DNA of 13,510 nt, from contig JASJAL010000269.1 in assembly GCA_030067055.1 (NCBI GenBank), positions 1 through 13,510 on the forward strand. Reading direction: 5' to 3'. The notes beneath the pieces were generated by a model that searched no databases, was not told the DNA's origin, and saw only the letters and a list, made by a program, of their open reading frames with translations. This DNA comes from Kiloniellales bacterium (GTDB lineage Bacteria; Pseudomonadota; Alphaproteobacteria; Kiloniellales; JAKSBE01). The position numbers and the translations under genes were made by a program. This document shows, piece by piece, positions 1-13,510 of this stretch (positions within the stretch are counted from its first letter, which is position 1; each line of letters opens with the position of its first letter).

Positions 1-121
1 CCTGCGGAATCGCGCCCTGTGGCAATCCTCACAGTGTCGCGAGAGCAAGCGTGAGACCCTGGACTCGAGAGGGGACGTCAATCCATCATTGGATGCGTGC
101 CATGGCGGAGCCCCGTGAGGC

Positions 122-183
122 GGACCGAGCCGTCTCGGACCAAGAATTCGGCAGCCAGGGCCCGGATCGGGAGTGCGCTCCCG
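122..183. other. Two small inverted repeats upstream of the universal stress protein gene
   Basis: Bases 1-268 hold no convincing gene; the open frames there are GC-rich shadows. Two short hairpins can be read. One spans 122-141 (GGaCCGAG / CTCGGaCC, loop CCGT, one A-A mismatch). The other is a perfect 6-bp stem at 168-183 (CGGGAG / CTCCCG, loop TGCG). Neither is followed by a T-run, so they are not clear intrinsic terminators. They could belong to the 3' end of an upstream transcript or to the leader of the stress-protein mRNA. Role unknown. Confidence 0.25.
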
Positions 184-268
184 CCCGGAGGTCGAGCTGT
201 CGAGCGAGCCTTTCTGCGGATCGAAGCCCACATGGTGCCCTGAGGACGGCGGCGTCCGGGAGGTTCAC

Positions 269-1153
269 ATGGCGATGACAACGGTTCTGGTTCTGGTCGA
301 CAGCTCCGAGCCGGGGCGCTGCGCGATGCGGGCGGCCTTCCTGGCCGCGCGCCGCGACGGCGGACACGTGGTCGGCCTCTATTCCGTGCCACCGTCCGAG
401 CGGCTGACCTCGGAGTCGATGTATTTCTCGCGCGCCTCACTGGAAATTCCGGGACAGGACGGCCTGGCGATGCTCGATCGGGCCGAGCGCGACGGCGGTG
501 CGGGAGTCCAGACGGCCCGCCACGCCTTCGAGGAGGTGGCCGGCGAGATGGGGGCCGCGATCCAGGAGCGGCCGCCGAACCCGGGCGGGCTGACCGCCTA
601 TTTCCAATCCCAGCCCGACGGCGATCCCGAGGCGGTCGCAGCGCTGGGTCGGGTTTTCGACGTGGTCGTGGTCCAGCAGCCGCGGCAGGACCCCGATCAT
701 CGGGTCCGCAAGGTGCTACGCGCGGTGCTCTTCCAGGCGGGGCGTCCGATCCTGGTGGTGCCGCCCGATCCCTCGCTGTCCCTGGGCCAACGGCCTCTGA
801 TCGCCTGGAACGGCAGCGCCCGTTCGGCCCGCGCAGCCGCCATCGCGCGCAGCTTTTTCGACAGCGCGAGGGAGGTCGGCATCCTCTCGGTGCGGACCAA
901 AAACGGCGCGGGACCGTCGGCCCGGGACCTCGCCGACTACGTCGCCTGGCACGACATGAAGCCCAGCGTCGTCGAGACCGAGCTTGAGAACAACCGCTTG
1001 GGCGATGTCTTCCTGCGCGAGGCGGCGCGCTTCGGCGCCGATCTCCTGGTCATGGGCGCCTACGCCCAGAGTCCCTTCCGGGAATCTCTGACAGGCGGCG
1101 TCACCAATCATGTGCTGAGCCACGCCGAACTGCCGGTGCTGATGACCCATTAG
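269..1153 (+). CDS. Universal stress protein, tandem UspA-domain type
   Basis: This 294-residue cytoplasmic protein is about twice the length of a single Usp domain, so it is read as a tandem UspA protein, a common alphaproteobacterial type. The N-terminal half opens with a hydrophobic strand and acidic turn (TTVLVLVDSSEPG) typical of the Usp fold. The C-terminal half ends in the nucleotide-loop region at about residues 260-294 (LVMGAYAQSP...LTGGVTNHVL...LPVLMTH). The canonical ATP motif is G-2x-G-9x-G-S/T. Here G263 and G276 are present, the second glycine is Ala266 and the S/T position is Gly277, so ATP binding is uncertain. The ATG at 269 is chosen because GGGAGG (258-263) lies 5 nt upstream; a second ATG at 275 is possible, and the longer frame from 173 lacks support. 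The role is general stress tolerance by family; the specific trigger is unknown. It appears monocistronic. Confidence 0.88.
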   Translation: MAMTTVLVLVDSSEPGRCAMRAAFLAARRDGGHVVGLYSVPPSERLTSESMYFSRASLEIPGQDGLAMLDRAERDGGAGVQTARHAFEEVAGEMGAAIQERPPNPGGLTAYFQSQPDGDPEAVAALGRVFDVVVVQQPRQDPDHRVRKVLRAVLFQAGRPILVVPPDPSLSLGQRPLIAWNGSARSARAAAIARSFFDSAREVGILSVRTKNGAGPSARDLADYVAWHDMKPSVVETELENNRLGDVFLREAARFGADLLVMGAYAQSPFRESLTGGVTNHVLSHAELPVLMTH

Positions 1154-1191
1154 GGCTGGGTCGATCCGGGCCGGATTGCCCCATAGCGTTG

Positions 1192-1242
1192 CGGTGGGAA
1201 GCGGTCAGGCTCTAGTCTGAAGCCTGGGACCGGTTTCCACCG
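1192..1242. repeat. 51-nt imperfect inverted repeat (long hairpin)
   Basis: In the 135-base gap between the stress-protein and MaoC genes, bases 1192-1211 pair with 1221-1242. The blocks are CGGTGGGAA/TTTCCACCG, then CGGT/ACCG, then CAGGCT/AGCCTG, enclosing a 9-nt loop (1212-1220). This gives 19 pairs (one G-U), one G-G mismatch and a 2-nt bulge (1227-1228). It lies 38 nt after the stress-protein stop and ends 46 nt before the MaoC start. There is no T-run after it, so a standard intrinsic terminator is not obvious. It could be an mRNA-stabilising 3' structure, a leader element of the MaoC mRNA, or a copy of a palindromic dispersed repeat. Confidence 0.6.
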
Positions 1243-1288
1243 TTTCCGGATTCGATACCGAGCTCCCGATCGGCGACCAGAGGCGAGC

Positions 1289-1729
1289 GTGACCTTTCTG
1301 CCCTTCCAGACCCTGTACTTCGAGGACTTGAGCCTCGGCATGACCGAGACCTATCCGAAGACGGTCAAGTCCTCTGACGTGGTCGGCTTCGCGGAGATCA
1401 CCGGTGACCGGAACCCGATCCACCTCTCGGAGCACTTCGCGGCGAGGACGCCCTTCAAGGGCCGCATCGCCCACGGCCTCTACACGGCCAGCCTGATCTC
1501 GGCCGTGATCGGAACCCGGCTGCCCGGGCCGGGCGCGATCTACATCTCCCAGACCTTGAGGTTCCTCGCGCCGGTCAAGATCGGCGATACGGTCGACGCC
1601 ATCGTCGAGGTGGTCGAGCTGAACGAGGAAAGGCAAAGGGCCCGGCTGAGCTGCCAGTGCAAGGTCGGAAACGACGTCGTCCTGGAGGGCGAAGCCGTCG
1701 TGAAGGTCCCGCGCCGTCCCGAAGACTGA
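1289..1729 (+). CDS. MaoC-family (R)-specific enoyl-CoA hydratase / dehydratase
   Basis: This 146-residue single hot-dog-fold protein is of MaoC/PhaJ type, close to the family's usual length. The hydratase signature is clear at residues 33-52 (GFAEITGDRNPIH then a conserved ARTPF/GRIAHG stretch), with the expected catalytic pair Asp40 and His45. The HG of the RIAHGLYTASL segment and the later QTLRFLAPVKIGDTV segment are also typical. By family it adds water to trans-2-enoyl-CoA to give (R)-3-hydroxyacyl-CoA, in beta-oxidation, polyhydroxyalkanoate supply or side pathways; the acyl substrate cannot be read from sequence. The GTG start keeps the usual N-terminal YFEDLSLGM strand; the internal ATG at 1340 would remove it. 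The gene converges on pobA with 21 bases between stop codons. Nothing ties it to the aromatic pathway beyond proximity. Confidence 0.88.
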   Translation: MTFLPFQTLYFEDLSLGMTETYPKTVKSSDVVGFAEITGDRNPIHLSEHFAARTPFKGRIAHGLYTASLISAVIGTRLPGPGAIYISQTLRFLAPVKIGDTVDAIVEVVELNEERQRARLSCQCKVGNDVVLEGEAVVKVPRRPED

Positions 1730-1750
1730 TCCCACCCGGCTCGAACTCCT

Positions 1751-2944
<1,194 letters not shown>

Positions 2945-4333
2945 CTAACCCGACAGCAGCCGCGGGACCGCCAGCGCCAGCACCGGCAGGGCAAGCAGCA
3001 GGGCGACCCGCAGGATCTCGACCGCGAAGAAGGGCATCACGCCTTGGAAGACCTGGCGCATGGTGGCGTTGTCGGCCAGGGTCGAGATGATGAAGACGTT
3101 GAGCCCGACCGGCGGCGTGATCAGCCCCAATTCCACCACGATGAGGGCCAGGATGCCGAACCAGATCTTCAGCTCGTCGCTGCTGAGGCCGTAGGCGGAA
3201 CTGGCCGCGGTCGCATAGTCGCCGCCATTGAGGTCGATCAGCACCGGCCAGAAGAAGGGCACCACGACCAGGATCATCGCCAGCGATTCCATGAAGCAGC
3301 CGAGGACGATCAGCAGCGCCAACATGGCGATCAGCACCAGCCAGGGGTCCAGGCCGCTGCTCGCGGCCCAGCTCGCCAGGGCGCTGGGCAGCCCGGCGCG
3401 GGTGAAGAAACCCTTCAGGATCTCGGCGCCGAAGAGGATGAAGTAGATCATCCCGGCGGTGACCGCGGTATCCAGTAGCGATTGCCTGATGCCATGGCCG
3501 CTCAGTCCCTCGCCGCGCAGGCGCAGCAGCAGGCCGTAGGCCAGCACCGCGAAGACTCCGACCCCGGCCGCCGGCGTCGGCGTGAAGAGCCCGGCGCCCA
3601 GGCCCAGGATGATCGCACCGAAGATCGCCACCACCGGGATCAGCCGCAGGATGGCCTGGCGCCGTGCGGCGGCCTCCAGGGGCGGGGCCGGCGGCGCGGT
3701 CTCAGGCCGCAGCCGCACCAGGACCGCGATCACCGCCATGAAGAAGCCGACCGCGATCAGGCCCGGCAGCAGCGCGGCCTGGAACATCTCGATGATCGAG
3801 GCCTCGACGATGATCGCGTAGACCACCAGCGCCACCGAGGGCGGGATCAGGATCCCGAGCGTACCGCCGGCGGCCAGGGTCCCGGTCGCCAGTCGCGGCG
3901 CGTAGCCCATGCGCTTGAGCTCGGGCAGCGCGACCCGGCCCATGGTCGCGGCGGTCGCGAGCGACGAGCCGCAGACCGCGCCGAAGCCGGCGCAGGCACC
4001 GATCGCAGCCATGGCCGCGCCGCCGCGAAAGCGGCCGATCAGGGCGTTAACTCCCTGGAAGAGGTCGCGGCTGAGATTGGCGTGAGAGGCCAGGAAACCC
4101 ATCAGCACGAAGAGCGGCACCACCGAGAGCTCGTAGTTGGCGACGCTGTTCCACAACAGGGTCTTGTACTGCTTCAGGTAGGGCCCGAAGCGCAGGTAGG
4201 GCAGCGCCAAGCTGAGCGCATAGTTGCCGGCGATGCCGACCCCGATCATCGCCAGCCCGACCGGAACGCGAAGGGCGAGCAGGCCGAACAGCACGACCAG
4301 CCCGGCCAGGCCGATCAGCTCACGCTCGCCCAT
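2945..4333 (-). CDS. dctM: TRAP transporter large permease subunit DctM
   Basis: This 462-residue, highly hydrophobic protein is the ion-coupled transport subunit of a tripartite ATP-independent periplasmic transporter. About a dozen membrane segments are expected. Family motifs are the small-residue loop AGFGAVCGSS (115-124), IPPS (163-166), FTPTPAAG (250-257) and ITPPVGLN (405-412). In most family members the third motif reads TPTEA; here the Glu position is Pro254, which is unusual. The ATG at 4333 gives the normal N-terminus (MGERELIGLAG); the open frame extends upstream to 4456 but that extension is dctQ read in another frame. The start overlaps the end of dctQ by 14 nt, indicating translational coupling. 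Gene order dctP-dctQ-dctM-pobA suggests that the cargo is 4-hydroxybenzoate or a related aromatic acid; this is inferred from context only. Confidence 0.95.
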   Translation of the reverse strand: MGERELIGLAGLVVLFGLLALRVPVGLAMIGVGIAGNYALSLALPYLRFGPYLKQYKTLLWNSVANYELSVVPLFVLMGFLASHANLSRDLFQGVNALIGRFRGGAAMAAIGACAGFGAVCGSSLATAATMGRVALPELKRMGYAPRLATGTLAAGGTLGILIPPSVALVVYAIIVEASIIEMFQAALLPGLIAVGFFMAVIAVLVRLRPETAPPAPPLEAAARRQAILRLIPVVAIFGAIILGLGAGLFTPTPAAGVGVFAVLAYGLLLRLRGEGLSGHGIRQSLLDTAVTAGMIYFILFGAEILKGFFTRAGLPSALASWAASSGLDPWLVLIAMLALLIVLGCFMESLAMILVVVPFFWPVLIDLNGGDYATAASSAYGLSSDELKIWFGILALIVVELGLITPPVGLNVFIISTLADNATMRQVFQGVMPFFAVEILRVALLLALPVLALAVPRLLSG

Positions 4334-4823
4334 GCTCGTCTCTCTCAAGAGCTTGCAGCGCGGCGACCGCGGTCCAGAGCAGGAGCGAGGCGATGCCCGG
4401 CAGGTAGAAGGGCCACTCCGGCCAGCCGAGCACGCGCGACAGGGCGCCGTCGGCACGGGTCTCCAGGAGGCCAGCGGTCATCCAGAAAGCGAGGAAGGCG
4501 GCCAGCGCCGCCATTGCCAGCGCGATGGACGTGTCGAGCGCTTGCCGGACCCGAGGTGGCAGCCACTTGGCGAAGAGGTCGACCGCAACGTGGCCGCGCC
4601 GGAGCTGGCAATAGGGCAGCAGCATGAGGGCGGCGACCGAAACCGCGAGGCGCACGAAGTCCTCGTAGCCGGGCAGACCCGAGACCGTTCCGCCGAAAAT
4701 ACGGGCCAGGCGATCCAGGGTGAAGGCGCCGGCGTTGGCCGTGGTCACCAGGACGATCGCCAGCAGCACCAGGCCACCGATCAGGGCCCAGGCTACCGCA
4801 AGCTTTTCGACGAGGTCGCGCAT
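4320..4823 (-). CDS. dctQ: TRAP transporter small permease subunit DctQ
   Basis: This 167-residue inner-membrane protein with four hydrophobic segments is the normal size for DctQ. The diagnostic segment lies at about residues 52-84: GYEDFVRLAV, then a membrane helix, then QLRRGHVAVDLF, as in other TRAP small permeases. It pairs with DctM to form the membrane part that receives substrate from the periplasmic DctP. The ATG at 4823 has a purine-rich GAGAGA (4826-4831) just upstream; dctM also has a GAGAGA-type leader rather than a strong AGGAGG. It lies 63 nt downstream of the dctP stop, with two small hairpins between them, and overlaps the dctM start by 14 nt. Confidence 0.93.
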   Translation of the reverse strand: MRDLVEKLAVAWALIGGLVLLAIVLVTTANAGAFTLDRLARIFGGTVSGLPGYEDFVRLAVSVAALMLLPYCQLRRGHVAVDLFAKWLPPRVRQALDTSIALAMAALAAFLAFWMTAGLLETRADGALSRVLGWPEWPFYLPGIASLLLWTAVAALQALERDEHGRA

Positions 4824-4840
4824 GTTCTCTCTCGCTGCGC

Positions 4841-4880
4841 CCCTTGTCGAAGGGTGAGAGGTCGAGGGCTCTGAAGCCCT
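4841..4880 (-). promoter_or_regulatory. Tandem intercistronic hairpins between dctP and dctQ
   Basis: The 63-base dctP-dctQ gap contains two perfect small stems. One is at 4865-4880 (AGGGCT / AGCCCT, 4-nt loop), starting 6 nt after the dctP stop in the direction of transcription. The other is at 4841-4854 (CCCTT / AAGGG, 4-nt loop). There is no T-run, so full termination is unlikely. In binding-protein transport operons such structures often protect the 5' segment or cause partial termination, so that more binding protein than permease is made. That role is inferred here. Confidence 0.45.
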
Positions 4881-4886
4881 GGAAAC

Positions 4887-5918
4887 CTACTCTCCGCCTC
4901 GCTTGGCAACTGCGTCGCGGGCTGCCTCGACCAGGCCCAGGCCGTCGATGCCGTTGTCCCGGGCTTCCTTGATCCAGCGGTCGACGACCTGCTGGCCGAG
5001 GGCGTCGAAGCTGCCCTTGGCGGCAGCGTCGAGGGCGATGATCTTGCCGCCCGACTTGGCCTGGGCGTCCCTGCCAGGTCCTTCGACCCCGTCCCAGAGG
5101 GCGCCGATCTCGCCGGCGATGGCGGCGCCCGAGTTGGCGTCGATGACCTTCTTCAAGTCGGCCGGCAGGGCCTGATAGCGATCCTTGTTCATGGCGTAGA
5201 GGAACACCGAGGTGCCGAAGCGCGAGCCGTCGTCGCCCTCGACCGAGTACTTGGTCAGCTCCTGCAGCTTCAAGGGCAGGACGATCTCGAAGGGCACCAG
5301 GGCGCCGTCGACCGTGCCCTTGGACAGAGCCTCGGGCAGAGCGGGCACCGGCATGCCGACCGGCTCGGCGCCCCAGGCCTCGATCATCCAGGCGCCGGTC
5401 CGCGAGGGGGTGCGCAGCTTCAGGCCCTTGACCTCGTCGACCGAGCGCACCGGCTTTTCGCGCAGGTGAATGGCGTTGCCGGCATGGACGTGGACCAGGA
5501 TCGGCTTGAGGTCGGCGTAGTCATCGGCGATCAGGTCGAAGTTGTCCTGGATCGCCAGGGTGGTGGCGCGGGCGCTGCCCTTGTGCACGGTCGGCAGCTC
5601 GAAGACCTCGGAGCGCGGGAAGACCCCGGGCGTGTAGCCGATCAAGGTCCAGACGATGTCGGCCGCACCGTCGCGGACCTGGCGGTAGAGCTCCGGCGGC
5701 TTGCCGCCCATCGACATCGAGGGGAAGACCTCGACCTTGATCCGGCCCTTGGACTGCTCCTCGACCCGCTTCGCCCAGGGGGCGATGAACTTGGCGTGGG
5801 CCGGCGACTTCGGGCTCAGGAAATGGTGCACGGTCAGCGTGACCTCGGCGGCCTGCGCCGGAATGCTGAATGCGGCCGCGGTCAAGGCGGCGGCGCAAAG
5901 TCGGGTGATCGCGTTCAT
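4887..5918 (-). CDS. dctP: TRAP transporter substrate-binding protein DctP
   Basis: This 343-residue periplasmic solute receptor of a TRAP transporter starts with a Sec signal peptide (residues 1-23: MNAITR, a hydrophobic core, then AQA before AEV). The mature part has the DctP fold signatures: early strand EVTLTVHHF, the KVEVFPSMSMGG segment (61-72), and GLKLRTPSR (165-173), whose Arg169 matches the conserved arginine that usually salt-bridges the ligand carboxylate. Then comes PVPALPEALSKGTVDGAL (190-207), also typical. The start at 5918 is chosen because GGGGGAGG (5925-5932) is 6 nt upstream; the ATG at 5924 abuts that site and is less likely. It is the first gene of the arm leading to pobA. 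A carboxylate ligand is supported by Arg169; an aromatic ligand such as 4-hydroxybenzoate is inferred from the operon. Confidence 0.95.
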   Translation of the reverse strand: MNAITRLCAAALTAAAFSIPAQAAEVTLTVHHFLSPKSPAHAKFIAPWAKRVEEQSKGRIKVEVFPSMSMGGKPPELYRQVRDGAADIVWTLIGYTPGVFPRSEVFELPTVHKGSARATTLAIQDNFDLIADDYADLKPILVHVHAGNAIHLREKPVRSVDEVKGLKLRTPSRTGAWMIEAWGAEPVGMPVPALPEALSKGTVDGALVPFEIVLPLKLQELTKYSVEGDDGSRFGTSVFLYAMNKDRYQALPADLKKVIDANSGAAIAGEIGALWDGVEGPGRDAQAKSGGKIIALDAAAKGSFDALGQQVVDRWIKEARDNGIDGLGLVEAARDAVAKRGGE

Positions 5919-5986
5919 GGACATCCTCCCCCTTCGGAACCTCGGGTCTTCTTGACGGCCGAGCGGTCGAGACCCTTGCTGCTCGA

Positions 5987-6015
5987 AGTATGAAAGTCGC
6001 TTCAGGTTATGAGAA
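5987..6015 (-). promoter_or_regulatory. Candidate sigma-70 promoter for dctPQM-pobA
   Basis: Reading the minus strand, a -35-like TTCTCA (6010-6015) and a -10-like CATACT (5987-5992) are separated by 17 bases, each matching four of six consensus positions. The predicted transcript would begin near 5980, leaving a leader of about 60 nt before dctP that includes the stem at 5944-5975. The boxes overlap the TGAA/TTCA half-sites, as expected for a regulated promoter. The match is modest and promoters in GC-rich genomes are hard to call by eye. Confidence 0.3.
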
Positions 6016-6110
6016 ATGAATTCTTTGCGCCCCCTTTCTGATTTTACATAGCCGACCCCCCGGTCCAAGCTGATGCCCTGGGTCGAATTCCCGTTTCCTT
6101 CTCGCTGTCG

Positions 6111-6131
6111 TGCTCGGATTTGATCCGGGCA
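6111..6131. repeat. Palindrome resembling an alphaproteobacterial dispersed repeat
   Basis: TGCTCGGAT (6111-6119) and ATCCGGGCA (6123-6131) pair around a TTG loop, with one G-U. Short palindromes of the type TGCCCGGAT...ATCCGGGCA are, from general knowledge, scattered in intergenic DNA of many Alphaproteobacteria. In reverse translation they give a recurring spurious 'DARIKSEHD'-like peptide, as this copy does. It sits between the probable operator and pcaD. Only one copy is present in the window, so repetition itself is not shown here. Confidence 0.45.
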
Positions 6132-6169
6132 TCTAACGAGCCGCTGCGCCATGATATCGAGGAGAACGG

Positions 6170-6184
6170 ATGGCAAACCTGTGA
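6170..6184 (+). other. Possible four-codon leader ORF before pcaD
   Basis: ATG-GCA-AAC-CTG-TGA (Met-Ala-Asn-Leu-stop) follows a good Shine-Dalgarno sequence GAGGAG (6159-6164) by 5 nt and ends 36 nt before pcaD. It may be a minimal upstream ORF affecting pcaD-operon translation, or chance. It has no sequence features of a known attenuator. Confidence 0.2.
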
Positions 6185-6220
6185 CCGAGGCCACGGCTTC
6201 GAAAGGGAGGAAAAGCCGAC

Positions 6221-7015
6221 ATGCGTTTCGCCAGGGTGAACGACGTGGTGCTGCACCACGCGGTCGAGGGGCCGCCGGATGCGCCGACCGTGGTCTTCTC
6301 CAACTCGCTCGGCACCGACTTCCGGGTCTGGGACCCGCTGCTCGCCCACTTCGGCCGGGGCCTGCGCCGGGTGCGCTACGACAAGCGCGGCCACGGCCTG
6401 TCCCAGGCCCTGCCGGCGCCTTACGTGATGAGCGACCACGTCGGCGATCTGGCGGCGCTGCTCGACCATCTCGGGATCGAGTCGGCGGTCGTGGTCGGGC
6501 TGTCGGTCGGTGGGATCATCGCCCAGGGCCTTTCGAGCCTGCGGCCAGAGCGGATTAAGGGCCTGGTCCTCAGCGACACCGCCCATGTGATCGGCCCGCC
6601 CGAGATGTGGGACCAGCGCATCGCGGCCATCGAGGCCGGCGGTATCGAGGCCCTGGCGGACCCGATCATGGAGCGCTGGTTCTCCGAGGCCTTCCGCCGG
6701 GACCGGACGGAGGACCTGGCGGGCTGGCGCAACATGCTGGTCCGGACCCCTGTCGAGGGCTACCTCGGGACCGCCGCGGCGATCCGCGACTCCGACATGA
6801 CCGAGCAGGCCAAGGCGATTCGCGTGCCGACCCTTTGTGTCGGCGGCTCGGAGGATGGCTCGACCCCGCCCGAGCTGGTCGGCGCCCTGGCCGCCTTGAT
6901 CCCGGGCGCGCACTTCGAGGTCATCGAGGGCGCCGGGCATCTGCCCTGCGTCGAGGCGCCGGAGACCCTTGCCGGCCTAATGAAGGAATTCTTCGCGGAG
7001 GCCGGCCTTGCCTGA
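6221..7015 (+). CDS. pcaD: 3-oxoadipate enol-lactonase (beta-ketoadipate enol-lactone hydrolase)
   Basis: This cytoplasmic alpha/beta-hydrolase hydrolyses beta-ketoadipate enol-lactone to beta-ketoadipate. At 264 residues it is the usual stand-alone PcaD length. The N-terminal segment FSNSLGTDFRVWDP (26-39) and YDKRGHGLS (53-61) are PcaD-typical. The catalytic triad is Ser95 in the GLSVGG elbow, Asp212 (GSEDGSTPP) and His240 (GAGHLPCVE). The length shows it is not fused to the decarboxylase PcaC, as it is in PcaL-type proteins. The ATG at 6221 has GGGAGG (6205-6210) 10 nt upstream. It is the first gene of the plus-strand pca arm. The 84 bases between it and pcaH contain no complete gene, although pcaC commonly lies there in alphaproteobacterial pcaDCHGB clusters. 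Confidence 0.96.
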   Translation: MRFARVNDVVLHHAVEGPPDAPTVVFSNSLGTDFRVWDPLLAHFGRGLRRVRYDKRGHGLSQALPAPYVMSDHVGDLAALLDHLGIESAVVVGLSVGGIIAQGLSSLRPERIKGLVLSDTAHVIGPPEMWDQRIAAIEAGGIEALADPIMERWFSEAFRRDRTEDLAGWRNMLVRTPVEGYLGTAAAIRDSDMTEQAKAIRVPTLCVGGSEDGSTPPELVGALAALIPGAHFEVIEGAGHLPCVEAPETLAGLMKEFFAEAGLA

Positions 7016-7103
7016 GGATCGCCGCGAGACCGTCGAGCCGGCGGCCGCTCGCGCGGTCGCCGTCGCCGGCAAGGCGCCGGACGAGCAAGGAGAGACGGGA
7101 TGA
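7008..7103 (+). other. Short open frame bridging pcaD and pcaH where pcaC is expected
   Basis: A frame beginning at TTG (7008), overlapping the end of pcaD by 8 nt, stays open for 31 codons and stops at a TGA that overlaps the pcaH start (ATGA, 7100-7103). The peptide (LPEDRRETVEPAAARAVAVA...) is low in complexity. Its RR...RAV spacing faintly recalls the N-terminus of PcaC proteins, but the similarity is too weak to call homology. It may be a coupling peptide between the two genes, a remnant of pcaC, or chance in GC-rich DNA. A 7-bp stem (7037-7043 with 7064-7070) lies inside it. Confidence 0.2.
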
Positions 7104-7807
7104 GCGCGCGCCAACCCTTCAAGCCGCGGGACTGGGACAGCCATCCGCCCTATCTCTATCCGGACTACAAGTCGACCGTCCTGCGCGCGCCGACCAAGCC
7201 GCTGATTCCCCTGGCGCAGTCCCTGTCCGAGCTGACCGGCCCGGTCTTCGGCCATGACAGCCTCGGACCCCTGGATCACGACCTGACCCGCAACGCCGTC
7301 GTGGACGCCGAGCCTCTGGGCGAGCGGATCATCGTGGCCGGCCGGGTCCTCGACGAGGACGGCCGCCCGGTGCCTCAGACCCTGATCGAGGTTTGGCAAG
7401 CCAACGCGGCCGGGCGCTATATCCACAAGGTCGACCAGCACCCGGCGCCGCTCGACCCAAACTTCCTGGGCGCCGGGCGCTGCCTGACCGACGACGAGGG
7501 CCGCTACCGCTTCGTCACGGTCAAGCCGGGCGCCTATCCCTGGGGCAACCACCCCAACGCCTGGCGGCCCAACCACATTCACTTCTCGCTTTTCGGGCCG
7601 AGCCTGGCGACCCGACTGGTGACCCAGATGTACTTCCCCGGCGACCCGCTGCTCGAGCTCGATCCGATCTTCCAGGGCACCCCGGCCGCAGCCCGCGACC
7701 GCCTTGTCGCCGACTTCTCCCTCGATGCAACCGAGCCCGACTGGGCGCTGGGCTATGTCTTCGACATCGTCCTGCGCGGTCGTACCGCCACGCCGATGGA
7801 GGGCTAG
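7100..7807 (+). CDS. pcaH: Protocatechuate 3,4-dioxygenase beta subunit
   Basis: This is the iron-bearing subunit of the intradiol dioxygenase that opens the ring of protocatechuate to 3-carboxy-cis,cis-muconate. At 235 residues it has normal length. The four Fe(III) ligands are all visible: Tyr107 (AGRYIH), Tyr146 (KPGAYPW), His159 and His161 (RPNHIHFS). The active-site arginine of this group corresponds to Arg156. The N-terminal region (FKPRDWDSHPPY, then LRAPTKPL) is also typical of PcaH rather than catechol dioxygenases. The ATG at 7100 follows AAGGAGAGA (7088-7096) at 3-6 nt. Only 3 nt separate it from pcaG, consistent with equimolar synthesis of the two subunits. Confidence 0.97.
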   Translation: MSARQPFKPRDWDSHPPYLYPDYKSTVLRAPTKPLIPLAQSLSELTGPVFGHDSLGPLDHDLTRNAVVDAEPLGERIIVAGRVLDEDGRPVPQTLIEVWQANAAGRYIHKVDQHPAPLDPNFLGAGRCLTDDEGRYRFVTVKPGAYPWGNHPNAWRPNHIHFSLFGPSLATRLVTQMYFPGDPLLELDPIFQGTPAAARDRLVADFSLDATEPDWALGYVFDIVLRGRTATPMEG

Positions 7808-7810
7808 GCC

Positions 7811-8398
7811 ATGCCCAAGCAGACGCCGTCGCAGACCGTCGGACCCTACTTCGCCTATGGCCTGACGCCTGAGCAGTACGGCTACGCCTTCTCCAGCATC
7901 GCAGGTGGCGTGCTCACCGTTGAGGCGGGCGACGGTGAGCGCATCCGGATCGAAGGCCGCGTGCTCGACGGCGCCGGCGAACCCGTCGGTGACGCCATGG
8001 TCGAGATCTGGCAGGCCGACGGCCAGGGCCGCTACGCCCATCCCGCCGATCCGCGCAGTTCCAACGCCCGCTTCCGGGGTTTCGGCCGGGTCGGCACCGG
8101 GACCGACCCCGAGCAGCGCTTCGTCTTCGAGACCGTCAAGCCGGGCGCGCCCGGCGACGGCCAGGCGCCGCACATCGACCTGGTCCTTTTCCTGCGCGGC
8201 CTGCTGTCCCACGCCTACACCCGCATCTACTTCTCCGACGAGCGCGAGGCCAACGCGGCGGACCCGGTGCTCGCGGCGGTGCCGGCCGAGCGCCGCGCGA
8301 CCCTGATCGCTGAACGCGACGAGTCCGCCGACCTCCCGCTCTATCGCTTCGACATCCACCTGCAGGGCGACCGCGAGACGGTCTTCTTCGACATCTAG
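7811..8398 (+). CDS. pcaG: Protocatechuate 3,4-dioxygenase alpha subunit
   Basis: This 195-residue partner of PcaH forms the (alpha-beta)n dioxygenase. The N-terminal TPSQTVGPYFAYGL (5-18) is the standard PcaG start and contributes to the substrate pocket. The fold repeats that of PcaH (EGRVLDGAGEPV..., VEIWQADGQGRY, TVKPG), but the iron ligands are naturally not conserved as a set: the PcaH NHIHFS site is APHIDLVLF here. The C-terminal YRFDIHLQGDRETVFFDI is typical. It starts 3 nt after the pcaH stop and is followed after 27 nt by the BKACE-family gene. Confidence 0.97.
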   Translation: MPKQTPSQTVGPYFAYGLTPEQYGYAFSSIAGGVLTVEAGDGERIRIEGRVLDGAGEPVGDAMVEIWQADGQGRYAHPADPRSSNARFRGFGRVGTGTDPEQRFVFETVKPGAPGDGQAPHIDLVLFLRGLLSHAYTRIYFSDEREANAADPVLAAVPAERRATLIAERDESADLPLYRFDIHLQGDRETVFFDI

Positions 8399-8425
8399 GG
8401 AAAGGCCGACAAGGATCCGAGACGC

Positions 8426-9256
8426 ATGACCGAGCCCTGCATCATCACTGTGGCGATCACCGGATCGGTGCCGCGCAAGGAGGACAATCCGGCGGTGCCG
8501 ATCTCGGTGCAGGAGCAGATCGAGTCCACCCAGGAGGCCTTCGAGGCCGGCGCCAGCCTGGTTCACGTCCACGTCCGCAACGAGGACCAGACGCCCTCTT
8601 CGGATCCGGAAAAGTTCGGCGCCTTCCAGGAGGGCGTGCGCAAGCACTGCCCCGGCATGATCGTCCAGTTCTCGACCGGCGGCCGCGGTCGCGCCGCCCA
8701 GGAGCGCGGCGCCATGCTCCACCTCAAGCCCGACATGGCCTCGCTCGCGACCGGCTCGGTCAACTTCCCCAACATGGTCTACGAGAACCCGCCGCAGCTG
8801 GTCGAGGAGCTCGCTGCGAACATGCTGGCCGAGGGCATCAAGCCGGAGGTCGAGGTCTTCGACCTGGCCATGCTCTACACCGCGGCCGAGATGGCCGCGG
8901 CCGAGCGCCTGAAGACGCCGCTCCACGTTCAGTTCGTCTTCGGCCTCAGGAACGCCCTGCCGCCGCGCCGCGAGATACTCGAGTTCGAGATCGCGCAGCT
9001 CGAGGCCTTGGCGCCGGACGCGACCTGGACCGCCGCCGCGATCGGCCGCAGCCAGCTCGAGATGAACCGTTGGGCGCTGGAGCTGGGCGGCCACTGCCGC
9101 ACAGGGCTGGAGGACAACATCCGCTTCGACAAGTCCCGTCTGGCGGCCAGCAACGCCGAGTTGGTCGCCCGGGTCGCCGCGCTTTGCGCCGACTACGGCC
9201 GCCACGCCGCGACGCCAGCCGAGGCGCGCGCCCTCCTGTCTCTGCCGCCGGCATGA
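8426..9256 (+). CDS. BKACE (DUF849) family beta-keto acid cleavage enzyme, possibly acting on beta-ketoadipate
   Basis: This 276-residue TIM-barrel protein belongs to the DUF849/BKACE family, whose founder is Kce (3-keto-5-aminohexanoate cleavage enzyme). Members are Zn-dependent and condense a beta-keto acid with acetyl-CoA, releasing acetoacetate and the CoA ester of the remainder. Family residues are present: VAITGS (9-14), zinc ligands His47 and His49 (VHVHVR), Ser83 (QFSTGG), and Arg225 with Glu229 and Asp230 (CRTGLEDN), Glu229 being the third metal ligand. The ATG at 8426 has AAGGA (8411-8415) upstream. It lies 27 nt after pcaG and overlaps pcaB by 4 nt (ATGA), so it is firmly inside the pca operon. 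Inferred reaction: beta-ketoadipate plus acetyl-CoA to succinyl-CoA plus acetoacetate, replacing PcaIJ and PcaF, which are absent here. The family call is strong; the substrate is inferred from context. Confidence 0.92.
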   Translation: MTEPCIITVAITGSVPRKEDNPAVPISVQEQIESTQEAFEAGASLVHVHVRNEDQTPSSDPEKFGAFQEGVRKHCPGMIVQFSTGGRGRAAQERGAMLHLKPDMASLATGSVNFPNMVYENPPQLVEELAANMLAEGIKPEVEVFDLAMLYTAAEMAAAERLKTPLHVQFVFGLRNALPPRREILEFEIAQLEALAPDATWTAAAIGRSQLEMNRWALELGGHCRTGLEDNIRFDKSRLAASNAELVARVAALCADYGRHAATPAEARALLSLPPA

Positions 9257-10593
9257 GCTTCACGCCCCTCGATTCCGCACTTTATGGTGAGCTGCTCTCG
9301 GATGCGGAGGTCGCCAGCCAGCTCGACGACGCGGCTCAGCTGTGCGCGATGCTCCGGGTCGAGGCTGCCCTGGCCCGGGTCCAGGGCCGGCTCGGGGTGA
9401 TTCCGAGTGCGGCGGCCGAGCGGATCTCCGAGGTCGCCGAGTCCTTCGCGCCGGAGCCCGCAAGCCTGGCCGCGGCGACCGCCGAGGCCGGCATCCCGGT
9501 CCCGGCCCTGGTCGCCGCGCTGTGCGACGCGATCGGCGACCCGGCCGCGAACCACGTGCACTGGGGAGCGACCAGCCAGGACATCATCGATACCGGACTG
9601 GTGCTCCGGCTGAGGACCGCGCTCGAAATCCTCGAGCAACGCCTCGCCGCCCTGACAGAGAGCTTGGCGGCTCTGGCCGACAGCCATCGCGGCACGCTCA
9701 TGGTCGCGCGCACCCGCGGCCAGCAGGCGGTGCCGACGACCTTCGGCCTCAAGGTTGCTGTCTGGCTGGCGCCACTGCTGCGCAGCCGCGAGCGCCTGGA
9801 CCAGCTCCGCCCCCGCCTGCTGCTGCTCAGCTTCGGCGGCGCGGCCGGCACCCTGGCGGCGCTCGGCGACCGCGGCCCGGCCGTCGCCGAGGCCCTGGCC
9901 CAGGAGCTCGGCCTCGGCCTGCCGCCGCTGCCCTGGCACGTCCAGCGCGACGGCCTCGCCGAACTGGCCGGCTGGCTTTCCCTGGTCACCGGCAGCCTGG
10001 GCAAGCTCGGCCAGGACGTGCTGCTGCTGGCCCAGAGCGAGGTCGGCGAGCTGCGCGAGGGCGGCGCGCCCGGCCGCGGCGGCTCCAGCACCATGCCGAA
10101 CAAGGCCAACCCGGTCGGAAGCGAGGTCCTGGTCACCGCCGCGCGCCTCAACGCGGCCTTGCTCGCCGCGATGCACCAGGCCCTGCCGCAGGAGCAGGAG
10201 CGCGGCGGGCCCGGCTGGCAGCTCGAATGGCTGACCCTGCCCCAGATGCTGGTGATGACCGGCTGCGCCCTGCGCCACGCCCTGTCTTTGGTCGAGAATC
10301 TCGAGGTCGATGCCGACCGCATGCGCCGCAACCTCGAGGCCTCCAACGGCCTGTTTCTGGCCGAGGCCGCGACCTTCGCCCTGGCCGAACACTTGCCGCG
10401 CCCGCAAGCCCAGGATCTCGTAAAGGCCGCCTGCGCCGAGGCCAAGGCGAGCGGTCGGCACCTCATCGATCTCCTCGCCGAGACCAGCGATGCCCCGGTC
10501 GACTGGGCTAGACTCCGCGACCCGGCCAACTACCTCGGCGCCGCCGAGACGTTCATCGACCGTGTGCTGGCGAAGGCGACGAAGGCGCGTTAA
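9253..10593 (+). CDS. pcaB: 3-carboxy-cis,cis-muconate cycloisomerase
   Basis: This fumarase/aspartase-superfamily enzyme converts 3-carboxy-cis,cis-muconate to gamma-carboxymuconolactone. At 446 residues it is similar in length to the Pseudomonas enzyme. Conserved regions are LCAMLRVEAALARVQ (30-44), HWGATSQDIIDTGL (103-116) and the superfamily signature GSSTMPNKANP (277-287), which holds the mobile catalytic serine loop. The next segment (VGSEVLVTAAR) fits PcaB better than adenylosuccinate lyase. The ATG at 9253 overlaps the BKACE stop (ATGA), with no clear Shine-Dalgarno sequence, suggesting coupled translation; the open frame upstream of it is antisense-like shadow. It is the last gene of the pca arm and is followed by a strong hairpin terminator. 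Its product needs PcaC before PcaD can act, and no pcaC is in the window. Confidence 0.95.
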   Translation: MSFTPLDSALYGELLSDAEVASQLDDAAQLCAMLRVEAALARVQGRLGVIPSAAAERISEVAESFAPEPASLAAATAEAGIPVPALVAALCDAIGDPAANHVHWGATSQDIIDTGLVLRLRTALEILEQRLAALTESLAALADSHRGTLMVARTRGQQAVPTTFGLKVAVWLAPLLRSRERLDQLRPRLLLLSFGGAAGTLAALGDRGPAVAEALAQELGLGLPPLPWHVQRDGLAELAGWLSLVTGSLGKLGQDVLLLAQSEVGELREGGAPGRGGSSTMPNKANPVGSEVLVTAARLNAALLAAMHQALPQEQERGGPGWQLEWLTLPQMLVMTGCALRHALSLVENLEVDADRMRRNLEASNGLFLAEAATFALAEHLPRPQAQDLVKAACAEAKASGRHLIDLLAETSDAPVDWARLRDPANYLGAAETFIDRVLAKATKAR

Positions 10594-10608
10594 CGCTTCA
10601 AAAAAGAA

Positions 10609-10635
10609 GAAAGGCCGGCGCGGGGCCGGCCTTTC
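10609..10635. terminator. Bidirectional intrinsic terminator
   Basis: A perfect 11-bp stem, GAAAGGCCGGC (10609-10619) with GCCGGCCTTTC (10625-10635), encloses a 5-nt loop between the convergent pcaB and FAS1 genes. On the minus strand it is followed by a T-rich tract (TTCTTTTTTG, complement of 10599-10608), a classic intrinsic terminator for the FAS1 gene. On the plus strand the stem itself ends in TTT, so it likely stops pcaB transcription as well. Confidence 0.9.
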
Positions 10636-10656
10636 GAACTTGCAGTCGGTCTGACC

Positions 10657-11145
10657 TTACGACTTCGGCAGCACCACGGCGTCGATGACGTGGATCACGC
10701 CGTTGGAGGTCTCGATGTCGGCGGAGACCACCTTCGCGTTGTCGACCTTCACGCCGTCGGTCGCGTCGACCGAGAGCTTGCTGCCCTCGACGGTCGCGAC
10801 TTCGGCAGTCTTGCCGGCGATGTCCGAGGACATGATCTTTCCGGGGACCACGTGATAGGTCAGGACGGCGACCAGCTGGTCCTTGTTCTCGGGCTTCAGG
10901 AGGTTCTCGACCGTGCCCGCGGGAAGCTTCGCGAAGGCCTCGTCGGTCGGCGCGAAGACGGTGTAGGGGCCATCGCCCTTGAGGGTCTCGACCAGGCCGG
11001 CGGCCTTGACGGCGGCCACCAGGGTCTCGAACTGTCCGGCCGAAGCCGCGGTGTCGACGATGTCGGCGGCCTTGGCGGCCAGCGAGCCGAGGGCGAGCGG
11101 CAGGGCAAGCGTTGCCGCGATCGCAAAACGGGAAAGAACCTTCAT
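10657..11145 (-). CDS. Secreted fasciclin (FAS1) domain protein
   Basis: This 162-residue exported protein has a Sec signal peptide (residues 1-26: MKVLSRF, hydrophobic core, AKA before ADIVD) and one FAS1 domain filling the rest. FAS1 landmarks are the H1 box [13 protein letters not shown] (62-74), the YH motif [10 protein letters not shown] (95-104) and the H2 box [13 protein letters not shown] (148-160). By family such small bacterial proteins are periplasmic or secreted adhesion-like proteins, but their ligands are mostly unknown. No lipobox is seen, so it is not a lipoprotein. The ATG at 11145 is preceded by only a weak ribosome-binding site (GTGGTG, 11151-11156). It ends at the bidirectional terminator and lies 184 nt downstream of the sulfatase gene on the same strand. 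Confidence 0.93.
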
Positions 11146-11329
11146 TTCATCACCACTGTTGAATGGAACCGATAGGCCCTATTCGCAGCTCGACCCCCGT
11201 CGGATCACTTGCGACTTCCGAAATGCTGATGACCGGTATTTCGCGCGGAGGGGACGCTTCGGCAGCCACCGCAATTCCGTGGCTCCCTTGGCGTCCGACC
11301 GGCCTGAAGATTTGGCCGGCCGCGCGGCA
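11146..11329. other. Gap between sulfatase and FAS1 genes
   Basis: These 184 bases have no convincing coding sequence. A 6-bp stem, CCGGCC / GGCCGG (11299-11304 with 11314-11319, 9-nt loop), lies 11 nt beyond the sulfatase stop on the minus strand. It has no T-run, so it is a weak terminator candidate at best. The gap is long enough for the FAS1 gene to have its own promoter, but no clear -35/-10 pair was found. Confidence 0.3.
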
Positions 11330-13084
11330 CTACATGCGAAGCTTGTGGATATCCGGATCGAGTCGCCAGCGTGCCGGGTCCTTGCCCGGGAGCATCTGGC
11401 CGGCGTCCTCGCCGACCTCCGCCTCGATCAGGGCGTTCAGCTTGTCATTCATCGCCAGGAGAAGCTCGCCCTGGGCCCGATCCTGAATGGCGAGGTTGTT
11501 GGTTTCCTGAGGATCGCCCTCAAGGTCGAACAACTCCACGTCATTGAGCGTGACGAGCTCCTCCAGGCTGCGCGGCAGGTGGTGCTCCTCGGGCGAGAAG
11601 TAGCGCGAGAGCTTGTAGCGGCCGTCATAGACCGCGCGGATCGCGCCTCGCTTGCTCAGGTCGGGGCGAATGCCCTGCGCGGGAATGTCCTCCGGCTTAC
11701 CGCCTTCGGCTAGGAACTTGGCAACGCCGCCGAGCAGGCCCTGATCCAGGTAGGCGAGCATGTTGAAGCTGTAGAGCGCGCCTGGTCGCAAGGCATCCAG
11801 GCCGGCTGCCTCCGGATCCGCCAGAAGCGTTGAGATGTCCTTGCCGGGCAAGCGCGCCAGGTCGGGCCCGGGCGCGCCGCCGGCAATGCCGATCAGGGTC
11901 GTGGCGATGTCGACGTGCGAGGTGACCGCCTTGCAGCGCTTGCCACCGGCGTGGTCGGGGTGCGCGATGATCAGGGGAACGTGGTTCTGCTCCCGGTAGG
12001 CGGTCGCACCCTTACCGCTCAGACCGTGAGCGCCGGCCAGCTCGCCGTGATCGGCGGTGTAGATGACGATCGTGTCCTCGGCGAGCCCGAGCGCGTCGAG
12101 CTCGTCGAGCAGCGACACCACGTGCTGATCGGCATCGGCGATGCAGTTGAGGTAGTAGTCGTTCAGGCGCCGCCACCGGTCGTCTTCGTTGGGAACGGCG
12201 CCGACCAGGGCCGCCCGCGAACGGCGGAATTCGGCGTGGGCTGGCGGCCGTCCCGGCGCGTCGAGGGCCTGATCTCGAGATGCGGGTAAGGGATTGTCCC
12301 AGCGCCTCTGATAGAGCGGCAGCCGGGGCTCGCGGTTGAGGCCCATCAGAAGGCTGGGCGTGTTCTGAACGCGCTCCTGGGGCGAGTCCGTGTTGTAGTA
12401 CATCACGTCGTGCGGGTTCACGAGGTTCACGGCCAGGAACCAGGGTTTGCCCTCGCGCTGGAGATTGACGCCCTGGCCGCGCAGCCAGCTGCGCGAATAG
12501 GCGGCGATCACGCTGTCATGCAAATAGCCGCCCTTGGTGCTGGCGATGATGTCGCCGATGCCGAGATAATCGGCGAAACCGTAGGCTTCCATCTCGGCGC
12601 TGAGCACCTTCTTGGGGGCGTGCAACTCGTTGTCGGTTTCGAATTCCGAGGCTAGGTGCCACTTCCCCTTGTAGGCGGTGTAATAGCCGCGCGCGCGCAG
12701 CATGTCGCCGATCGTGTCGATCTCGGTGCTCATGCTGCCGATCCAGGGGAAGTTGGTGTTGTCGAACATCCCGGTGTGCTGGATGTGCTGGCCGGTGTAG
12801 ACGACCGAGCGGGACGGGGTGCAGACGCAGGATGCAACCTGATGGTTCTCGAAGGTCACGCCCGCGCGCTTCAACCGCTCGTGGCCCGGTAGCCGGTAGT
12901 TCGACGGCAGCTCGCCGCTCCGGAAGTGGCGCTCCTGGTCGGTCAGGATGAAGAGGATATTGCGTCGCTTGGAGGCGTCTGTCGCCTGCGCCGGGCCACC
13001 TAAAATTCGGGTGCCGGCCGCGAGGCCTGCGGCGCCGGCGGCCGCGACGAAGGATCTTCGCGTCAGGGATCGGGTCGCATTCAT
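11330..13084 (-). CDS. Tat-exported type I sulfatase
   Basis: This 584-residue hydrolase belongs to the formylglycine-dependent sulfatase family. The N-terminus carries a twin-arginine signal (TRRSFVAAAGAAG, residues 7-19), predicting folded export to the periplasm. The metal and active-site set is visible: Asp49 (ILTDQERH), the nucleophile motif Cys88-Thr-Pro-Ser-Arg92 (CxPxR, Cys matured to formylglycine), Lys141 and His143 (GKWHL), His225 (NPHD), Asp345 and His346 (YTADHGE) and Lys358. It is therefore probably active on sulfate esters; the substrate cannot be read, and sulfated polysaccharide or aryl sulfates are both possible. A sulfatase-maturating enzyme is not in the window. The start at 13084 gives a compact Tat signal; an in-frame ATG at 13111, with a GGGGG 3 nt upstream, would add nine residues. 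It is flanked by two FAS1 genes, one downstream and one divergent. Confidence 0.93.
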   Translation of the reverse strand: MNATRSLTRRSFVAAAGAAGLAAGTRILGGPAQATDASKRRNILFILTDQERHFRSGELPSNYRLPGHERLKRAGVTFENHQVASCVCTPSRSVVYTGQHIQHTGMFDNTNFPWIGSMSTEIDTIGDMLRARGYYTAYKGKWHLASEFETDNELHAPKKVLSAEMEAYGFADYLGIGDIIASTKGGYLHDSVIAAYSRSWLRGQGVNLQREGKPWFLAVNLVNPHDVMYYNTDSPQERVQNTPSLLMGLNREPRLPLYQRRWDNPLPASRDQALDAPGRPPAHAEFRRSRAALVGAVPNEDDRWRRLNDYYLNCIADADQHVVSLLDELDALGLAEDTIVIYTADHGELAGAHGLSGKGATAYREQNHVPLIIAHPDHAGGKRCKAVTSHVDIATTLIGIAGGAPGPDLARLPGKDISTLLADPEAAGLDALRPGALYSFNMLAYLDQGLLGGVAKFLAEGGKPEDIPAQGIRPDLSKRGAIRAVYDGRYKLSRYFSPEEHHLPRSLEELVTLNDVELFDLEGDPQETNNLAIQDRAQGELLLAMNDKLNALIEAEVGEDAGQMLPGKDPARWRLDPDIHKLRM

Positions 13085-13287
13085 CGGTCTTGGACTCGCT
13101 CTTCTGGCCATTGTCCCCCGTTTGGAAGCCCCGAAGCTATCACGCTGGGAGAACCCGCGACATACCAGAAGCCGCCACCTTCTTCGGCCGTCCTCGACCG
13201 CCGGTCCGGCTACGCCGCCGCGTCGCGGGGGTGATCCGGCGACATATGGCGCTCGTAGCCTTCGATAACTGATACGGGAGCTAGACC
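13085..13287. promoter_or_regulatory. Divergent intergenic region between sulfatase and second FAS1 gene
   Basis: The sulfatase (minus) and the FAS1-like gene (plus) are transcribed away from these 203 bases, so promoters for both must lie here unless transcription comes from farther off. The right end has an AT-richer stretch (13256-13275) and the ribosome-binding site GGGAG (13276-13280). No hexamer pair convincing enough to name was seen. Open frames across the region are extensions of the sulfatase frame or shadows. Confidence 0.35.
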
Positions 13288-13510
13288 ATGAGACTTCCAA
13301 GGGCAGCAGGGATGGCATTGGCCATTGCAGCTTTGATCTCTCCGATCGCACGCGCCGATGCTGGAACCGAGATTTACTGGAACGACGTCGAAGACGTCGC
13401 GATCTTCGAGGCTGCCTTGACGGCCTCCGGCCTGCGACCTGCGCTCGGCCGGGATGACGTTTTCACGCTCTTCCTGCCGTCCGATGATGCCCTGGAGCGG
13501 GAAGGCTCTG
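13288..13510 (+). CDS. Secreted FAS1-like protein, 5' part (runs off the window)
   Basis: The first 74 codons of a gene are present, cut by the window end. They encode a Sec signal peptide (MRLPRAAGMALAIAALI..., likely cleaved after ARA at residues 21-23) and then the beginning of a fasciclin-type domain. VAIFEAALTASGLRPAL is followed by VFTLFLPSDDALERE, which matches the FAS1 H1 box (the [10 protein letters not shown] equivalent). The ATG at 13288 has GGGAG (13276-13280) 7 nt upstream. It is divergent from the sulfatase and is a diverged relative of the FAS1 gene at 10657-11145. The domain call rests on about 40 residues, so full domain number and length are unknown. Confidence 0.75.
   Translation, partial: MRLPRAAGMALAIAALISPIARADAGTEIYWNDVEDVAIFEAALTASGLRPALGRDDVFTLFLPSDDALEREGS

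Follow-up and report, generated by a model that had tools for sequence, protein, structure and literature searches.

We analysed a stretch of 13,510 nucleotides from a Kiloniellales bacterium (contig JASJAL010000269.1 of assembly GCA_030067055.1, positions 1 to 13,510, forward strand; hereafter the window), in which a gene of the DUF849 or beta-keto acid cleavage enzyme (BKACE) family is embedded in a cluster of pca genes. With a probability of roughly 0.87, we assign its product to the beta-ketoadipate subgroup of zinc-dependent BKACEs and assume that, together with general acetoacetate metabolism, it replaces the PcaIJ CoA-transferase and the PcaF thiolase of the classical pathway. Judged from sequence and context, the reaction is very likely beta-ketoadipate + acetyl-CoA -> succinyl-CoA + acetoacetate. 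A preliminary description of the window, made from its letters alone, had placed the gene between pcaG and pcaB, and the sequence confirmed this arrangement in every detail: 27 nt separate the pcaG stop codon from the BKACE ATG (8426), and the BKACE stop codon TGA (9254-9256) overlaps the ATG of pcaB (9253-9255) as ATGA. The gene order on the + strand is pcaD-pcaH-pcaG-BKACE-pcaB, so that the BKACE lies among genes for the formation of 3-oxoadipate (beta-ketoadipate), all four of which were identified by curated NCBIfam models.

Family assignment and conserved residues

The protein matched the Pfam BKACE family PF05853 over its full length (residues 4-273; E 1.2e-93; 313.8 bits against a gathering threshold of 24.8). 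It also scored 480.2 bits with NF053568, the NCBIfam equivalog model for '3-oxoadipate:acetyl-CoA acetyltransferase' (cut-off 350), and stayed under cut-off with the models for the lysine-fermentation enzyme Kce (271.7 bits; cut-off 382) and for 3,5-dioxohexanoate (173.8 bits; cut-off 430). The match to NF053568 means that the activity had already been named by NCBI; the model name, 3OXCoAcCUPNH, points to a Cupriavidus enzyme as its probable basis.

Kce (3-keto-5-aminohexanoate cleavage enzyme, PDB 2Y7D) belongs to the same family, and its two His residues, Glu, STGG motif and the residue corresponding to Arg225 align with the window protein. The four residues singled out in the preliminary description, His47, His49, Arg225 and Glu229, were all present and were invariant in 49/49 aligned subfamily members. 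By analogy with Kce, and with roles taken from the Kce literature, we assume that His47, His49 and Glu229 are the zinc ligands and that Arg225 is the substrate arginine. Arg87, which adjoins the STGG motif, was likewise invariant in 49/49 subfamily members, whereas Kce, whose lysine-fermentation substrate carries an amine, has Ala at this position. We infer that Arg87 may grip the far carboxylate of the substrate.

Genomic contexts of related BKACEs

A scan of GTDB species genomes for relatives of the window BKACE returned 15 loci with 65-92% identity, and the nearest of these were in metagenome-assembled genomes (MAGs) of Kiloniellales. The four closest loci (L001-L004, 80-92% identity) share the order pcaH-pcaG-BKACE-pcaB with the window, and pcaD lies upstream in the three with sufficient contig. 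At L013 (Azospirillum sp. SYSU D00513), two CoA-transferase-like genes, pcaF, pcaD, pcaC, pcaB and the BKACE form one row; the 10 other loci showed no pca gene next to their BKACE. The operon of L002 contains short inserts between pcaH and pcaG (5336-5530 of that locus) and between pcaG and the BKACE (6119-6301), where the window has a few nt and 27 nt, respectively. Their translations are rich in 'TPALPHRGGG'-like words, and they look like a small repeated element.

Close relatives were also present in 86 plasmid records, 22 of which were examined. The BKACE lies beside pca genes in 10 annotated records (L030, L034-L037, L040, L041, L068, L070 and L071), and the pca-linked relatives include Ruegeria, Paracoccus and Palleronia; on an unannotated Microvirga plasmid (L074), tblastn placed pcaH, pcaG, pcaD and pcaC beside it. 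Three records (L032, L042 and L069) combine a gene for an intradiol dioxygenase with one annotated as maleylacetate reductase, that is, the hydroxyquinol route if the names are taken as annotated; the models found only catechol/chlorocatechol-type dioxygenases on L032 and L042, plus an iron-type dehydrogenase in L032, all under cut-off. The product of the hydroxyquinol route is 3-oxoadipate. In L031 and L072 the BKACE is accompanied by a dioxygenase (annotated as hydroxyquinol 1,2-dioxygenase in L072), a hydrolase and a BenE-like transporter, together with a CoA-transferase of the SCOT type. SCOT-type genes are also present in L066, along with pcaD and, at the edge, a dioxygenase-like gene. 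By annotation and by reading of the translations, L033 and L067 resemble quinate/shikimate clusters. L039 has a hydrolase and a small protein, with no dioxygenase in the stretch, L073 shows nothing but dioxygenase-like sequence at one edge, and L038 has no aromatic gene adjoining the BKACE, a pcaB-like gene being annotated 6 kb off.

The protocatechuate, hydroxyquinol and quinate routes have a single beta-keto acid in common, beta-ketoadipate; another one, maleylacetate, is restricted to the hydroxyquinol route. The best contextual argument for beta-ketoadipate as substrate is thus that it is common to all the routes in which the relatives occur.

To place the window protein among its relatives, a tree of 52 BKACEs was used (L022 was left out as a copy of L013, and the root was left unused, the outgroup being on very long branches). 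The window fell into a supported clade of six (98/93), and 6/6 of its members lie beside pca genes. Across the tree, pca linkage changed 11 times, against a mean of 17.3 for shuffled labels, and a value as low was reached in 1/500 shuffles; the unannotated records L066, L073 and L074 were labelled 'other' here, so that the number of pca labels is an underestimate, as L074 and L066 adjoin pca genes. Since pca linkage recurs in separate parts of the tree, it has been repeatedly gained or lost.

Some members of the subfamily have quite different neighbours. At L007, L008 and L010, the BKACE is directly preceded by genes for a biotin carboxylase and a protein of carboxyltransferase type and is followed by an amidase (Biotin_carb, HMGL-like and PYC_OADA by Pfam in L007; L008 and L010 by like reading), possibly a pathway that carboxylates a ketone and then cleaves the beta-keto acid. 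At L060 (genome G310) and L062 (G370), it follows genes that read as hydantoinase A/B-like in translation. Hydantoinase A/B are kin of acetone and acetophenone carboxylases, and these loci may possibly hold another pair of carboxylase and BKACE.

Alternative substrates and the classical ending

Several observations weigh against the assignment of the window BKACE to a beta-ketoadipate pathway without PcaIJ and PcaF, and they concern the substrate, the completeness of the cluster and the possible presence of the classical enzymes. As to the substrate, NF053568 was also passed by BKACEs remote from any aromatic gene: 9/9 tested BKACEs from the 15 nearest loci passed it regardless of their neighbours, and exactly one gene exceeded the cut-off in each of the 15/15 genomes. 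The name of the model therefore does not fix the substrate, and it was rejected as proof of it, BKACEs in unrelated contexts scoring equally high. The enzyme might instead act on another beta-keto acid, with the cluster serving a side substrate. BKACEs have been described as promiscuous (PMC4922564), and the carboxylase-type and hydantoinase-like contexts above are remote from aromatic genes. However, the gene overlaps pcaB, the same neighbourhood is found throughout the clade of six and elsewhere in the tree, and beta-ketoadipate alone unites the three aromatic routes. We regard another substrate as highly improbable.

The window also lacks pcaC, and the cluster alone is thus an incomplete pathway that needs a decarboxylase from elsewhere. 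In L002, L003 and L004, pcaC lies between pcaD and pcaH, where the window has 84 nt, a difference on which the preliminary description was silent; it is inside the cluster in the corresponding genomes (G002-G004), as it is in the 10 annotated clusters from plasmids. There is a precedent for a pcaC outside the cluster, as the BKACE cluster of genome G331 shows none and an over-cut-off pcaC is present on another contig.

In the window, tblastn detected no pcaI, pcaJ, pcaF, pcaC or pcaQ (best E 0.04); the search for the classical ending was made with two CoA-transferase types and two thiolases. The absence of pcaI, pcaJ and pcaF had been noted correctly in the preliminary description and treated as informative, which base rates did not bear out. 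Among 385 evenly drawn alphaproteobacterial genomes, 72 had PcaH over cut-off, at 75 pcaH loci. A BKACE was present within 10 kb of pcaH at 8/75 loci, and 0/8 of these had a PcaF-type thiolase or a CoA-transferase within that distance, CoA-transferases being counted among the matches listed, which reached down to about 98 bits, so that a weaker Cat-type enzyme could escape. The same held for 54 of the 67 remaining loci, that is, 54 of all 75 had neither these enzymes nor a BKACE nearby. Because most alphaproteobacterial pcaH loci are without these genes in their vicinity, their absence from 13.5 kb says little, and pcaIJF may be located elsewhere in the genome to which the window belongs.

If so, the BKACE could be redundant or serve in detoxification, with PcaIJ and PcaF carrying the flux from another locus and the BKACE draining excess beta-ketoadipate. 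Mutual exclusion between a pca-linked BKACE and a module of CoA-transferase plus thiolase was not significant (0/8 vs 11/64 among the matches listed; Fisher p = 0.34). Azospirillum sp. SYSU D00513 (L022/L013) and a Limimaricola plasmid (L071) each carry both endings in a single row; in the latter, the gene for the CoA-transferase B subunit reads in two pieces and is unannotated. Of the two pca clusters in genome G394 (L056 and L057), one includes a BKACE with 75% identity to that of the window, the other a CoA-transferase of the PcaIJ type. Furthermore, the TIGR02430 (PcaF-type) thiolase was over cut-off in 8/8 pca-BKACE genomes of the 72-genome set. It adjoins phenylacetate (paa) genes in G002, G394 and G085. 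G267 has two copies, of which one lies about 4 kb from such genes. No paa genes were recognised near the other G267 copy, nor over a distance of about 7 kb from the thiolase in G146, G331, G346 and G037, and these thiolases may be true PcaF.

The nearest genomes argue against such redundancy. The class I CoA-transferase family PF01144 was found in 0/4 of G001-G004 vs 11/11 other genomes with a relative, and TIGR02429 (PcaI/ScoA) in 0/4, so that the classical route could start there only with an unrelated activating enzyme or if the genomes are incomplete; all four are MAGs of uncertain completeness and seemingly two pairs of relatives, which amounts to about two independent cases. In the wider set, 3/8 pca-BKACE genomes were without any CoA-transferase pair vs 4/64 of the others (p = 0.03, ignoring kinship). 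Two of the four nearest genomes, G001 and G002, had a TIGR02430 'pcaF' over cut-off. Its neighbours by model were paaG and paaK in G001 (L016) and paaK in G002 (L017), with a thioesterase-like gene recognised by eye, and because these are phenylacetate genes, both thiolases are read as probable paaJ. Taken together, we consider a redundant or detoxifying BKACE unlikely, and a BKACE that stands in for PcaIJ and PcaF remains our preferred reading.

The fate of acetoacetate

From the identities assigned by the models, PobA, PcaHG, PcaB, a PcaC from elsewhere and PcaD would convert 4-hydroxybenzoate to beta-ketoadipate. The BKACE would then transfer the succinyl moiety onto the CoA carried by acetyl-CoA, releasing acetoacetate, as suggested by its family, its context and published assays on relatives. 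The preliminary description had seen in this a one-step ending of the pathway, which is overstated, as acetoacetate has yet to undergo activation and cleavage. In the nearest relatives this activation is probably due to acetoacetyl-CoA synthetase (AacS), since no class I CoA-transferase was found there; AacS was over cut-off in G001, G002 (partial gene) and G004, and G003 had a fragment at a contig edge. In Roseobacter-type operons, the SCOT-type genes found in relatives would take this role. A general thiolase would then yield acetyl-CoA, priming the next BKACE round.

A different carbon and CoA balance had also been anticipated for the BKACE route. The carbon yield is in fact unchanged, and the sum of BKACE, SCOT and thiolase is identical to that of PcaIJ and PcaF (beta-ketoadipate + CoA = succinate + acetyl-CoA). 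The part concerning CoA holds for the AacS variant only, in which BKACE, AacS and thiolase sum to beta-ketoadipate + 2 CoA + ATP = succinyl-CoA + acetyl-CoA + AMP + PPi. This variant costs about one ATP equivalent more, after succinyl-CoA has been cashed in.

Among 11 pca-BKACE genomes, none had both AacS and SCOT, four had SCOT only, seven had AacS only and none had neither (the G003 fragment was taken as AacS and the PcaIJ-type pair of G394 was excluded). The corresponding numbers in 64 control genomes were 9, 21, 27 and 7 (Fisher p = 1e-4), with PF01144 at 236 bits or more as a proxy for SCOT and at most 15 AacS candidates scored per control genome. The complementarity of the two enzymes is thus a general trait that was the same in the controls, and it was rejected as evidence for the pathway. 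The proportion of genomes with neither enzyme (0/11 vs 7/64) gave p = 0.58.

The relevance of acetoacetate removal is seen in published work: acetoacetate inhibits a BKACE with an IC50 of 1.45 mM, and a synthetic cycle was designed with a CoA-transferase and a thiolase after the BKACE (PMC11961710). In Paraburkholderia bryophila, acetoacetate-activating genes matter for BKACE-dependent growth (PMC6365646).

We further compared the CoA-transferases of BKACE rows with those of classical clusters in a tree of 20 pairs, which does not include 5/11 reference loci from pcaF/pcaHG neighbourhoods (L079-L082 and L085), whose hits were too poor for inclusion, or the Cat-type pair of Azospirillum (L013/L022). 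The 5/5 pairs from BKACE rows without PcaF (L030, L031, L066, L072 and L074) fell into one clade of 12 (100/100), together with 4/4 unlinked pairs of the pca-BKACE genomes G037, G085, G267 and G346 and three unlinked pairs from other genomes. A clade of eight comprised the pcaF-adjoining pairs of three Jiella-type genomes, two pairs from BKACE-free pca clusters, a further two that are unlinked, and the Limimaricola pair (L071), the sole BKACE row in this tree with PcaF. Three A subunits were compared with solved SCOT chains: that of the BKACE operon L030 scored 335 bits against bacterial SCOT (3cdk) and 279 against mitochondrial SCOT (1m3e), that of the unlinked pair of G267 scored 329 and 285, and that of the pcaF-linked L024 scored 198 and 177. 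On the basis of clade placement and the higher scores against the SCOT chains, the transferase of BKACE rows without PcaF is read as a putative acetoacetate:succinyl-CoA transferase of the SCOT clade, not of the PcaIJ clade.

This raises the tentative and somewhat doubtful idea that the 'pcaIJ'-looking CoA-transferase of BKACE operons is a SCOT specific for acetoacetate and serves to recycle this by-product; CoA transfer and thiolysis would then act one product later than in the classical pathway. Roseovarius nubinhibens depended on the CoA-transferase to grow on 4-hydroxybenzoate, whereas single mutants in pcaF or in a second thiolase showed no visible difference and the double thiolase mutant reached a lower final density; the authors propose that other thiolases stand in for pcaF (PMC12442348). 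A search of that article's text found no mention of DUF849 or BKACE. If the strain carries a pca BKACE, the reversed order of steps could explain these genetics, since a strain with a BKACE and a SCOT-type pair is expected to do without pcaF, whereas with PcaIJ and PcaF other thiolases are needed. The lower density of the double mutant fits a shared role of the thiolases, or the reversed order only in part, and weighs against the latter. Literature searches, from which subscription journals were mostly absent and which are therefore weak evidence of novelty, returned no article combining '3-keto-5-aminohexanoate cleavage' with pcaG and, for AacS with protocatechuate and beta-ketoadipate, nothing beyond a Rhodococcus genome paper.

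Organization of the window

The features of the pca region and of the divergent genes upstream are listed in Table 1. The solute-binding protein of the tripartite ATP-independent periplasmic (TRAP) transporter has 44% identity to a TRAP protein adjoining the pca-BKACE genes of Paracoccus versutus.

Table 1. Features of the pca region in the 13,510-nt window
Feature	Position	Strand	Basis
pobA, 4-hydroxybenzoate 3-monooxygenase (supplies protocatechuate)	1751..2926	-	TIGR02360 over cut-off
TRAP large permease, DctM-like	2945..4333	-	45% identity to annotated permease of Paracoccus versutus cluster; start codon inferred
Probable TRAP small permease, DctQ	4320..4823	-	position and length only
TRAP solute-binding protein, DctP	4887..5924	-	Pfam DctP; start codon inferred
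pcaD, 3-oxoadipate enol-lactonase (makes beta-ketoadipate)	6221..7015	+	TIGR02427 over cut-off
Gap of 84 nt; pcaC site in relatives L002, L003, L004	7016..7099	+	
pcaH, protocatechuate 3,4-dioxygenase beta	7100..7807	+	TIGR02422 over cut-off
pcaG, protocatechuate 3,4-dioxygenase alpha	7811..8398	+	TIGR02423 over cut-off; stop 8396-8398
AAGGA, putative Shine-Dalgarno-like motif, 10 nt 5' of BKACE ATG	8411..8415	+	read in sequence; role inferred
BKACE / 3-oxoadipate:acetyl-CoA acetyltransferase (kce-type), 276 aa, ATG start	8426..9256	+	PF05853, NF053568
pcaB	9253..10593	+	TIGR02426 over cut-off

Two genes on the - strand follow 3' of pcaB. The first (10657-11145) encodes a small secreted-looking protein that appears fasciclin-domain-like by eye and has no NCBIfam match; it is also kept beside the cluster in L001 and L002. 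The second (11330-13261) encodes a sulfatase (Pfam PF00884).

Comparison with known structures and pathways

The best-scoring solved chain for the window BKACE was PDB 3NO5 (E 2.2e-121, residues 1-273), an uncharacterized protein whose entry states no function. PDB 3CHV, deposited as a DUF849 protein of unknown function, aligned over nearly the whole length (E 8e-102). Its 274 aligned residues are identical to those of the protein whose gene follows pcaG on the megaplasmid of Ruegeria pomeroyi DSS-3, in a region with pcaQ and pobA-pcaC-pcaH-pcaG-BKACE. This locus differs from the window in having no adjoining pcaB or pcaD, and by gene position the solved but unannotated 3CHV is such an enzyme.

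The substrate and products proposed in the preliminary description are well supported by NF053568, the operon position, the recurrent contexts and published work. Its statements that some BKACEs accept beta-ketoadipate, and that such genes occur near pca genes in other Alphaproteobacteria, are both found in print: in the set of Bastard et al., beta-ketoadipate is assigned to a G3 subgroup and negatively charged substrates to G4 (PMC4922564), and the pca clusters of Methylobacterium have no annotated pcaI, pcaJ or pcaF and, in almost all strains, a DUF849 gene between pcaG and pcaB, several of these genes having been classified by Bastard et al. (PMC8963497, 2022). A single-step bypass has been drawn for the Methylobacterium-type cluster, and M. 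extorquens PA1 provided with pcaHGBL and kce of M. nodulans and with vanABK grows on protocatechuate, although no deletion of kce itself is described in the text consulted (PMC12379598, 2025).

The idea of a one-step bypass is thus not new and the novelty is low, the SCOT link being the one new testable point, with a prediction as to which CoA-transferase Roseobacters really use. The analysis extends this recently recognised pathway variant to Kiloniellales-like bacteria and to Rhodobacterales plasmids. It also cautions that the pathway may be complete in genomes scored as lacking pcaIJF, and that a gene called 'pcaF' can encode a phenylacetate thiolase. Like the Methylobacterium operon (PMC8963497), the window has a BKACE between pcaG and pcaB and no pcaI, pcaJ or pcaF in the operon; it differs in that pcaD is a separate gene, pcaC is missing, and pobA and TRAP transporter genes lie nearby. 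The window is an ordinary, well-formed member of this recently described variant.
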